A stretch of DNA of 52,792 nucleotides from Alphaproteobacteria bacterium (GTDB lineage Bacteria; Pseudomonadota; Alphaproteobacteria; M2410), in assembly GCA_006226415.1 (NCBI GenBank), contig SBGZ01000076.1, positions 1 through 52,792 on the forward strand, in the 5' to 3' direction. The position numbers were made by a program, and so were the translations under genes. Numbering within the stretch: the first letter of the stretch is position 1; each line of letters starts with the position of its first letter. The notes beneath the pieces were generated by a model that saw only the letters and a list, made by a program, of their open reading frames with translations, searched no databases and was not told the origin of the DNA. Of this stretch, positions 5,480 through 52,792 are shown one piece after another.

Positions 5480-6766
5480 TTATTGTGAATAATTTGACTC
5501 CAAATTATCCAGCTCTTCCTCATCTTCCAGTGTAAATGGTTTTTCGTCCACAACAGATTGTTGTTGAACCCGAACAATCCAATAATCCGGCTGCGACGAA
5601 CCATAGCCACTGTATGAAGCATCATCATAGGGCGACGACGTTGAGGGCAGGCTTGAGCCGCTGTAGGGATTGTATTCTCGCGCGGATCTGTCGTTGCCAC
5701 GCGATGAACCCGATGACGCGGTCGGTCCGGGCTCAAGGGTCACGGAATATTGCGACAAGGCCAAGGCCAGCTGATCGGGAGAGCCCACGACCTTCCAGTT
5801 CATCTCCGCACCCTGGATCGATTGGGCCACCAGATCATGCGACAGAATGTTGGGGGTCGCTTCAATCGCCTTGCGAATCTTCAGCCAGTCTTCCAGGGAG
5901 CCGTATTCCGCGGAAATGGTCATGGGGCGCTCATCGCCATAGCGGATGATGGTTTTGGCCTTCCAGTCTTCCTGAAGTTTCTCCACGATCCGGTCGATGG
6001 CAAAATTCATGGAACCTTTCAGTTCACTCGACAAGGGCAGGAGAAGATCGAAGCTCTCGGCGCCCGATGGGCCGATCCGGAAGACCTGAAGCGAGAGGGG
6101 CGCAGATTCGTTTTCCTGGGTGACGATCGCCAGCAGAATATCCTGCACACCATAGCGCTGCGCATAAGGCACAAGCTGGGTGTAGTCCGCTGCGGCCACG
6201 GCATCGCGCGACGTACTCATGACGTCTCCCAGGTCTCCGAGCGGCGTTATGAGCGAGACGAGATCGTGGGTGTAGTTGCGCCCTTTCCAGGCGGTGGTCC
6301 AGGGATTGTCGTCCTCCCACATGAGGACCTCCGTTCCCTTCACAAAGACCGGCAGCACCACGGCGGGACGCGCCTGGGCCTCGGAGAAGGGAATGTCATT
6401 GTCTTTGAGAATTCGCCGCACCTCATCGGGTTTAAAGCGATAGGTAATGGTCGCCAGATAGCGCGTGGGACTGTTGCGCTCGTTGGACACTTCAATACCG
6501 GAGCCAATGGCGGTCAGGTCCTGGGTCGACAAGGTCGGCAGCAAGGCCCAATCCATTTGCATGGTCAGCCGCTGCAAGAGCAGGCGCATGGCGGTGTGTT
6601 GGCCTTGCCGGATGGCAATAACCCGGGCCTCAGCGGCCTCATTGGCGGTGGCATCCACCGGCACATCGCGGACGGTAAAGAGATCTTCATTTGCCGCCCA
6701 GGCGGACGGAACACCCAATGACACAATAACAGCGGCGACCGTCAGGAGACCTTGAAAGAAACGCAT
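5480..6766 (-). CDS. DUF2066-like secreted/periplasmic protein
   Basis: Signal peptide MRFFQGLLTVAAVIVSLGVPSAWAA, then LFTVRDVPVDATANEAAEARVIAIRQGQHTAMRLLLQRL. Confidence 0.75.
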   Translation of the reverse strand: MRFFQGLLTVAAVIVSLGVPSAWAANEDLFTVRDVPVDATANEAAEARVIAIRQGQHTAMRLLLQRLTMQMDWALLPTLSTQDLTAIGSGIEVSNERNSPTRYLATITYRFKPDEVRRILKDNDIPFSEAQARPAVVLPVFVKGTEVLMWEDDNPWTTAWKGRNYTHDLVSLITPLGDLGDVMSTSRDAVAAADYTQLVPYAQRYGVQDILLAIVTQENESAPLSLQVFRIGPSGAESFDLLLPLSSELKGSMNFAIDRIVEKLQEDWKAKTIIRYGDERPMTISAEYGSLEDWLKIRKAIEATPNILSHDLVAQSIQGAEMNWKVVGSPDQLALALSQYSVTLEPGPTASSGSSRGNDRSAREYNPYSGSSLPSTSSPYDDASYSGYGSSQPDYWIVRVQQQSVVDEKPFTLEDEEELDNLESNYSQ

Positions 6767-50194: not shown

Positions 50195-51907
50195 ATGCGC
50201 GTTTTTCTTGTCCCCCGAATTTCGACGGGCCTATTGGCCGCTCTTTTCGTCCTCCTTACGGTTTTCCCTTGGGATGTGGCGCAGGCCTCACCGCCCACCT
50301 CAGACCTGTCCCTTGAGCTTGGGGAGGCCTATTTCGATACCGGCCCCGATGGCGGGCGGGTTCTCGTGGTTCCTCTCGTCTTGACCGAAGCGCCGGGCGC
50401 CACTGTCAGTTTCCGTTATTTCCGGGAAGAGTTCACAGAAGATGGGATTGTTCAGTCCAGAGAGTTTTCCGCCAATTTCGTTCTAAATGGCCCCCTTGCT
50501 TACAACATTGAACTTGATGCCAAGGGCGCCAGAGAATTTGGCATTCGGATCATTGCCGCTACGCTCGAAGACAACATCCCCACAGGCGGGAGCCGCGCGC
50601 TGCAGAGGTATTACCGAATAAGTGCCGAAGACCTTTTCCAAGAATTTTCATTACAAGAATTTACGCAGACCAAGGCGATTGAGCGTAAGCAACGTGACCA
50701 GCATCTGGGCGTGCGCGCAACACATCGTCACGGCGTCTATGACCCCTCAATGGATGTCGATAATGACCACACTTCAAGCGATGATCTGATCTTGAACCGA
50801 CCGATGCTCAATATCGGATCCGGCGATATCGACTTCAGAGTAGAAAGTGTTGAGACGGACGACAGCGCGCCGGAATATGTGACAATCAAAGGTCAGCTCA
50901 CCACATCGATCAATGGCGCGCCCTATCCTTTAAATTTTACCCGCATCGACTTTTGGGACAAGGATCCGGTCAAGGATGACTATTTGGGTTCCACCCGCAC
51001 GGACAACGATGGGAACTACGTTATTACCGTCAACAATGACGATGGTCCATTTGGCGGCGGCGTTGATGTTTATCTCTACATCTACTCCAACCAGAGTGAC
51101 ATCACCCTGCTCTATCTTGTCCCCGATGGCGAGGGCGGCTATTTGCCGATGTATTATGTTTGGACAAGCCCGACCCACGACGATCTGAATGAAAAAGTCG
51201 TCACCATTGATTACAACATCACCGACAACAATCTGGCGGCGAGTGTCTGGGCCGGTGCGGAGGCAGCGGCCTGGTTTGTAGAGTCCACGGCAGGCCGAAC
51301 ACTTAGCCATGTGGAGGTCCGTTACCCGCCGTTTAAGTCAGGCACCTATTACCTTAATGGGATTATCAATATTGATCCGGGCCATGGCGACTCCCCCGAT
51401 ACGGTTGGCCATGAATACGGTCATGCGGTGATGGATCAGGCCTATGGCGGGTTTCCGGAAGGTTCAGGCGGAGCCCATAGCCTCTGCGAAACCGCCAGTG
51501 CTGGCCTGGCCTGGAGTGAGGGGTTTGCAACCTGGTATGGGCTCGCGGCCTGGGGCGATGCGCCTGACATGACATGGCACATCGGCGGGCCCTCTGTGAA
51601 CATTGAAACCTGGCATTGCGGGCCCTTGGACGCAACCAAGGACGAGGGACGCACGTCCGCCTGGATCTGGGATCTTTATGATTTGCCGAAAGATTCCAAC
51701 GGCGGCAATACAGCCTATGGCAAGAATGGTTACTGGGACAGCAACGGCGGCGATAGTCTGGTCGGCTCTCGAACCCTTCTAGATACTCTGTGGCTTGGAA
51801 AGCAAAGCACCACGACGGCCTATTGGACCGCATTGCAGGGAGAACTGACGTCGGCCCAAAAAGGTCCTTCTACCCAGATCTCCAACTACAATTATCTCAT
51901 CCAATAA
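50195..51907 (+). CDS. Predicted secreted zinc metalloprotease with transthyretin-like domain
   Basis: Signal peptide (RISTGLLAALFVLLTVFPWDVAQAS); FTRIDFWDKDPVKDDYLGSTRTDNDGNYVITV; VGHEYGHAVMDQAYGG (HEXXH at 51410-51424) and downstream WSEGFATWYG. Confidence 0.7.
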   Translation: MRVFLVPRISTGLLAALFVLLTVFPWDVAQASPPTSDLSLELGEAYFDTGPDGGRVLVVPLVLTEAPGATVSFRYFREEFTEDGIVQSREFSANFVLNGPLAYNIELDAKGAREFGIRIIAATLEDNIPTGGSRALQRYYRISAEDLFQEFSLQEFTQTKAIERKQRDQHLGVRATHRHGVYDPSMDVDNDHTSSDDLILNRPMLNIGSGDIDFRVESVETDDSAPEYVTIKGQLTTSINGAPYPLNFTRIDFWDKDPVKDDYLGSTRTDNDGNYVITVNNDDGPFGGGVDVYLYIYSNQSDITLLYLVPDGEGGYLPMYYVWTSPTHDDLNEKVVTIDYNITDNNLAASVWAGAEAAAWFVESTAGRTLSHVEVRYPPFKSGTYYLNGIINIDPGHGDSPDTVGHEYGHAVMDQAYGGFPEGSGGAHSLCETASAGLAWSEGFATWYGLAAWGDAPDMTWHIGGPSVNIETWHCGPLDATKDEGRTSAWIWDLYDLPKDSNGGNTAYGKNGYWDSNGGDSLVGSRTLLDTLWLGKQSTTTAYWTALQGELTSAQKGPSTQISNYNYLIQ

Positions 51908-51922
51908 GCTGGGAGGCTTTTT

Positions 51923-52612
51923 ATGGCTCAGGTCAACATATTTGGAAATATCGACGCCACCGGGATCCTGAAGGACTACAAGACCCAGATTGATACTTAT
52001 TACGGCGGAGATCCAACGCTCAATCCACCTGCTGCCAATGTTAAAGCCAAGATTGTGGATCCAAGCTTTCCGCCTTATCGCATCGGCTATTACAACTCTT
52101 CAGCCTTGCCAAGCTACACACGCCTCATCTCTTCCAAGGATTCGACCGTGGGCTATGAGATCCGGCCCGGCGACACCACAACACGCAACGGCAAGACCTA
52201 TCTAACCAACACCTATAATCTCACCATTGTCGCCAACAATGGCGATAGCCTGCGCTGGTGGGGACATACCATCGTTCCCAACATTGCAACGCAGGCTATC
52301 ATTTCAAGCATCAATCTGCCTGGGTCCAGCACCCAGCCCCCGCCTCAATTCACCAATATGAAAAATACCAATATCTCGTTCTACAATACGGGCGGCGCGA
52401 TCAATCCGGCCAATCTGATGGATGGCTTGGCGATTGAAACCCACAGCGCGTTTTGCATCGATGCGGTTTTAAACGGCACTGTCGGGCAAACCATCAATTA
52501 CGACATCGATGTCTTGATCATGTCCGCGGCCATCGTCTCATCAAGCGGCAGTCTGGTGACCTATCCAATTGTCAACGTGGTGGTGGACCCGGTACTTATT
52601 ATTGGCGGCTGA
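51923..52612 (+). CDS. PixA/AidA (inclusion body) family-like protein
   Basis: MAQVNIFGNIDATGILKDYKT...YNLTIVANNGDSLRWWGHTIVPN resembles PixA/AidA N-terminus (V-ID...IL..Y) and GD-RW motif; RBS GGGAGG upstream. Confidence 0.5.
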   Translation: MAQVNIFGNIDATGILKDYKTQIDTYYGGDPTLNPPAANVKAKIVDPSFPPYRIGYYNSSALPSYTRLISSKDSTVGYEIRPGDTTTRNGKTYLTNTYNLTIVANNGDSLRWWGHTIVPNIATQAIISSINLPGSSTQPPPQFTNMKNTNISFYNTGGAINPANLMDGLAIETHSAFCIDAVLNGTVGQTINYDIDVLIMSAAIVSSSGSLVTYPIVNVVVDPVLIIGG

Positions 52613-52633: not shown

Positions 52634-52792
52634 CTAGTCATCACGTGCCGCGACGCTTGAAAGGTCCGACATGGCGCCTTTGTCGGCGGTCACGATCGGG
52701 CTTGCAGCTGCCGCGTCAAAAGCGGCTTCGAGCGTAGCGGCTTTCAACCCGACAACGGGTTTCCAGTTGGGGTGGGTAAAGATATAGGCCGC
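52634..52792 (-). CDS. Partial CDS, SDR-like C-terminus
   Basis: AAYIFTHPNWKPVVGLKAATLEAAFDAAAASPIVTADKGAMSDLSSVAARDD*; YIFTHP...F pattern seen in many SDR C-termini. Confidence 0.5.
   Translation of the reverse strand, partial: AAYIFTHPNWKPVVGLKAATLEAAFDAAAASPIVTADKGAMSDLSSVAARDD

Follow-up and report, generated by a model that had tools for sequence, protein, structure and literature searches.

A predicted exported metalloprotease-like gene and a PixA/AidA-like gene as an apparently genus-level pair in Alphaproteobacteria

Near one end of an alphaproteobacterial contig, a gene for a predicted exported zinc metalloprotease (gene 1) is followed on the same strand by a gene for a PixA/AidA-like protein (gene 2). 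The locus raises the question of whether the two genes form a functional unit, as an original prediction from the sequence had proposed, or only lie side by side. The window analysed here, the whole stretch of 52,792 nucleotides, makes up all of contig C7, and gene 2 ends approximately 180 bases short of the contig end. The assembly is incomplete (2.45 Mb, with a completeness of 83.7%). Feature coordinates are provided in Table 1.

Table 1. Features of the gene pair in the window and of related loci (L-numbers) in other contigs.
Feature	Position	Strand	Basis or remark
Gene 1, exported zinc metalloprotease-like	50195..51907	+	ORF; ortholog; dN/dS
Predicted Sec signal peptide, residues 1-31, cleavage between AQA and S	50195..50287	+	judged by eye
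N-terminal all-beta domain, about residues 33-150	50288..50650	+	AlphaFold2 model; least conserved part
Transthyretin/carboxypeptidase-regulatory-like domain, about residues 211-340	50825..51214	+	Pfam TTR-52; CarboxypepD_reg in relative L024
Peptidase-like domain, about residues 346-570	51230..51904	+	H406, E407, H410, H428 and E442 invariant among 10 relatives
HEYGH, residues 406-410, putative first two zinc ligands and catalytic Glu	51410..51424	+	motif, alignment
WSEGFATW, residues 440-447, E442 as candidate third zinc ligand	51512..51535	+	H-x13-E invariant
GGGAGG ribosome-binding site of gene 2	51911-51916	+	also in sister species
Gene 2, PixA/AidA-like, 229 aa, no signal peptide	51923..52612	+	sub-cut-off Pfam PixA score, profile, motif blocks, dN/dS
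Small exported beta-rich gene, L024	2475-3017		after protease
Small exported beta-rich gene, L025	2571-3122		after protease
Small exported beta-rich gene, L026	5464-5991		after protease
luxI-type AHL synthase and adjacent LuxR-type regulator, L031	1420-2935		contig C4, about 6.8 kb

Layout and conservation of the gene pair

Gene 1 (570 aa) and gene 2 were placed using the ORF list and a reading of the sequence, and are separated by a gap of 15 bp (51908-51922). The ORF positions, the gap, the ribosome-binding site, and the lack of a signal peptide in gene 2 were all as the original prediction had given them. Between gene 2 and the contig end, only the C-terminal end of an SDR-family gene is present (52635-52792, minus strand), truncated by the contig end.

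The same pair was found beside guaA in an alphaproteobacterial metagenome-assembled genome of a sister species (L006), with the same spacer and GGGAGG site. The gene 1 ortholog in L006 is 86% identical and has retained a signal-like N-terminus despite its diverged sequence. Between the window and L006, dS was about 1.1-1.5, with synonymous sites near saturation. The dN/dS was 0.049 for the mature gene 1 protease, 0.134 for its N-terminal region, which is its least conserved part, and 0.024 for residues 340-570 (a value given also for the transthyretin-like and peptidase regions). The two halves of gene 2 gave 0.006 and 0.032, and guaA, used as the comparison gene, gave 0.016. Strong purifying selection acts on both genes, and with dN/dS this low at near-saturated dS, both are therefore maintained as proteins. 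The conserved tight spacing also suggests co-expression, in line with what had been proposed from the window.

Conservation bears on the reading in which the two are independent accessory genes that became neighbors by chance and have no functional connection. Adjacency, spacer, and ribosome-binding site were kept while synonymous sites neared saturation (dS about 1.2-1.5), and the pair was kept while the region just downstream changed: L006 has a glutathione S-transferase gene before its SDR gene, and the window goes directly to the SDR homologue. Both points argue against chance. In its favor, gene 2 of L006 is frameshifted by a single-base deletion around position 6278, and gene 1 there is intact. 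Because the downstream half of gene 2 still has a dN/dS of 0.032, the frameshift was read either as an error of the assembly or as a loss that happened very recently.

Zinc-motif signature and relatives of gene 1

The predicted signal peptide was read by eye as MRVFLVPRISTGLLAALFVLLTVFPWDVAQA, with S following the cleavage site. The N-terminal domain, a putative beta-sandwich, was the best-predicted part of the AlphaFold2 model of gene 1 (10-residue block means of 49-82, all strands). Residues 245-302 matched Pfam TTR-52 (PF01060) at 24.8 bits (E 3.4e-5), 0.1 bit short of the cut-off of 24.9, and the upstream domain of the relative L024 scored 31.5 bits against CarboxypepD_reg, just under its cut-off. 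The signal peptide and transthyretin-like segment named in the original prediction were confirmed at this level. No peptidase model in Pfam or NCBIfam matched gene 1, TTR-52 being the sole near-threshold domain. The peptidase region had no significant match among solved structures (PDB), with a weak stretch to snapalysin, and its AlphaFold2 model was uninformative (pLDDT about 25). The structure predictions of both proteins rested on two- and three-row alignments. Domain models and structure prediction, which had been suggested as checks, yielded a weak PixA hit, a near-threshold transthyretin domain, no peptidase model, and structure models that were of no use for gene 2 and for the peptidase domain.

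The motif evidence was clearer. E442 lies 32 positions past H410 (31 residues between them), and H428 lies 14 positions before E442. In an alignment of ten sequences from Streptomyces, Embleya, and proteobacteria, H406, E407, H410, H428, and E442 were invariant and the H428-to-E442 spacing (H-x13-E) was constant in all 10, and the position difference from HExxH to the Glu was 30-34 throughout. HExxH occurred in only 1.2% of shuffles of the gene 1 protein, and HExxH with a suitably spaced xEGF/W in 0.005%; the combined motif was found once in the six frames of the whole window. The earlier reading of HEXXH...E with a candidate third ligand is supported, E442 being invariant in all 10 sequences. 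In the gene 1 protein, a putative zinc endopeptidase, H406, H410, and E442 would bind zinc and E407 would activate water.

A gluzincin arrangement, HEXXH with a downstream Glu conserved family-wide, is present in the 10 aligned sequences. M36 fungalysin-type and other gluzincins (e.g., Svx, M60-like) share with gene 1 the HEXXH and a downstream Glu in EG(F/W), but none of their models reached its cut-off, and the HEXXH-to-E gap in gene 1 (31 residues) and its relatives (29-33 residues) slightly exceeds the 8-28 residues quoted for gluzincins (PMC9266454). The relative L025 matched the NCBIfam model NF038111 (rhombosortase-dependent M36) only weakly, at 14.5 bits.

Translated searches placed relatives of gene 1 on Streptomyces and Embleya plasmids. 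A profile search added two in other Pseudomonadota (L024 and L025), and L025 as a lead gave relatives in Comamonadaceae and Burkholderia ambifaria. In several relatives the upstream domain is of the TTR/CarboxypepD_reg or Ig-like type, mostly at sub-threshold scores. The unnamed secreted proteins of Streptomyces and Embleya have, like gene 1, a signal-like N-terminus and a beta domain, TTR-like in some members, upstream of HExxH, the invariant H-x13-E, and WxE(G/A)FA; they differ in that identity is about 18-30%, some have an extra C-terminal domain, and no PixA neighbor was recognized. The plasmid-borne members (L008 3813-5570, L020-L023, and L007) either lack annotation or are labelled hypothetical or RICIN-domain proteins, and those scanned were matched by no Pfam peptidase model. 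By sequence comparison, the relatives of gene 1 are a coherent, unmodelled family with a gluzincin-like signature.

Remote relationship of gene 2 to PixA/AidA

The only Pfam hit of gene 2 was PixA (PF12306), at 17.5 bits (E 0.005), which falls short of the 21 bits set as the curated cut-off. Against an AidA/PixA profile built from eleven proteins, gene 2 scored 17.7 bits, compared with a maximum of 7.7 in 1000 shuffles. The leave-one-out scores of true PixA/AidA members were 59-256 bits; none of the eleven comes near the divergence of gene 2. A profile-profile comparison aligned gene 2 residues 96-135 with an E value of 0.001 and a probability of only 21%. Two family blocks were recovered in the family order: the N-terminal block VNIFGNIDATGILKDYK, equalled in 2 of 5000 shuffles, and the central block YNLTIVANNGDSLRWWGHTIVP, equalled in none of 5000. 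The C-terminal block was not significant (1588 of 5000). The family profile itself matches PDB entries 4lzk, 4q52, and 4pib; the gene 2 structure model was unusable (pLDDT 36), and a fold search of gene 2 gave no significant match.

Gene 2 shares with the PixA/AidA family (PF12306; 4lzk, 4q52, and 4pib) the N-terminal (I)NVxxxIDxxxIL(K)xY block and the central L-x-I-x-A-x-x-GD-x-x-RW block in the same order, and the lack of a signal peptide. It differs in its length (229 aa versus 173-191 aa for the family [PMC9060813], with roughly 45 extra residues, most before the central block), its non-significant C-terminal block, its sub-cut-off score, and its linkage to a protease. Gene 2 is probably a remote member of the PixA superfamily and not a member of PF12306; the PixA/AidA likeness originally seen in it is remote and probably genuine.

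A role like that of Bnr1 of Burkholderia cenocepacia, which reportedly acts as a DNA mimic and alters global gene expression, was also considered for gene 2. Bnr1 belongs to the PixA family, and both binding to histone-like proteins and an effect on supercoiling have been reported for it (PMC9060813). Gene 2, with a pI of 5.16, is not strongly negative: its composition of 0.9% Glu and 5.7% Asp versus 3.1% Lys and 2.2% Arg gives a net charge near -3. Such a role is very improbable.

Distribution of the pair and the nature of the link

Class-wide searches of 385 genomes found gene 1 and gene 2 each only in the two congeneric genomes, which are the only carriers of the pair and are both incomplete assemblies. 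PixA itself was present in 3/399 genomes of the phylum. A profile-widened search with gene 2 over the 399 phylum genomes gave matches that were rejected as noise (weak short stretches, many with stops). The protease motif was absent from all eleven PixA loci inspected (1.5-3 kb flanks), and no recognized PixA neighbor was found at the other protease genes inspected, a negative that is strongest for the loci other than L022 and L023 of Streptomyces. Viral contigs held no relative of either protein, phage records held none of gene 2, and neither protein matched PHROGs.

As the pair is adjacent nowhere outside the genus among the loci examined (the 11 PixA loci, the other protease loci, and the 385 genomes), a generic protease-PixA system is not supported. 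By sequence survey, the pair looks like a lineage-specific one at genus level and not a widespread new system. The original prediction was thus accurate as an observation and good in its motif reading, while the undescribed system that it proposed was not borne out beyond one genus. For the chance reading, an adjacency limited to one genus and two sampled genomes, with PixA genes and such proteases apart everywhere else examined, is further evidence in favor; weighed against the conservation above, chance is somewhat unlikely.

A direct partnership, in which gene 2 would serve gene 1 as an inhibitor, chaperone, or substrate, was weighed against the gene neighborhoods of the relatives. In L024, L025, and L026 (beta- and gammaproteobacteria), a small exported beta-rich protein is encoded immediately after the protease gene or overlapping it; those of L024 and L025 show mutual homology (BLASTP 2e-5) and match nothing in Pfam. 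The proteases of these three loci resemble gene 1 in having a TTR/CarboxypepD_reg-like domain with an HEWGH...SEG peptidase domain, and the loci resemble that of gene 1 in having a small gene directly downstream. They differ in a lipoprotein-type N-terminus and a C-terminal extension, and their small neighbor is exported and beta-rich, not PixA-like. The locus could accordingly be one case of a recurrent arrangement of a peptidase and a small beta-protein, in which a PixA-like protein has replaced the exported partner; gene 2, very conserved, stands in the same position. Against this, the two proteins should occupy different compartments, given that gene 2 lacks a signal peptide, and the annotated relatives in Streptomyces and Burkholderia ambifaria have no such small partner gene directly downstream. 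The idea that gene 1 carries, in its N-terminal domain, a fused form of the small exported partner was not supported, no similarity being detected between the two. A direct service of gene 2 to gene 1 is unlikely, and it is a shade less likely still that the exported gluzincin-like family recurrently pairs with a downstream small beta-sandwich protein and that the PixA-like protein is its true functional partner here.

The preferred reading, with a probability of about 0.5, is that an exported, unmodelled gluzincin-like peptidase and a cytosolic, divergent PixA-like protein are encoded in a genus-specific two-gene transcription unit and linked by shared regulation. Because the compartments of the two proteins should differ, shared regulation is likelier than physical partnership, and the link is most likely one of regulation and not of a shared reaction. 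For the co-transcription, compartments, gene 2 fold, regulation, and physiological role of the pair, we infer the following. Both genes would be carried on one bicistronic message, with gene 2 translated through its own ribosome-binding site. The gene 1 protein would be exported by Sec and act either periplasmically or extracellularly, and gene 2 would be a cytosolic jelly-roll protein of the PixA/AidA superfamily. Expression linked to stationary phase or cell density would then combine a nutrient-scavenging protease with an intracellular PixA-type adaptation protein.

With regard to export, one secretin of the genome scored 101.6 bits against NCBIfam, far under the GspD cut-off of 351, and a second was read by eye as CpaC-like; because no type II secretin reached the cut-off, release of gene 1 beyond the periplasm is unsupported. 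With regard to regulation, Burkholderia PixA/AidA genes are reported to be induced by low oxygen and to rank with the most strongly quorum-regulated genes (PMC9060813). In the genome studied here, a luxI homologue scoring 79 bits adjoins a luxR-type gene, both proteins being below the cut-offs of named NCBIfam models, so density control of the gene pair is possible. No lux-box-like CTG-N10-CAG was found upstream of the pair, and no promoter or terminator for the pair stood above chance.

The importance of the pair is limited because it is restricted to one lineage, and the result of wider use is the unmodelled TTR-HExxH peptidase-like family. These proteins form a coherent family across Actinomycetota and Pseudomonadota, and are annotated as hypothetical because no Pfam or NCBIfam model recognized them as peptidases here. 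PixA/AidA proteins have solved structures and little settled biochemistry, for which a conserved neighbor could offer a lead; a PixA-like functional partner of the protease, if true, would be the first biochemical link for PixA proteins.
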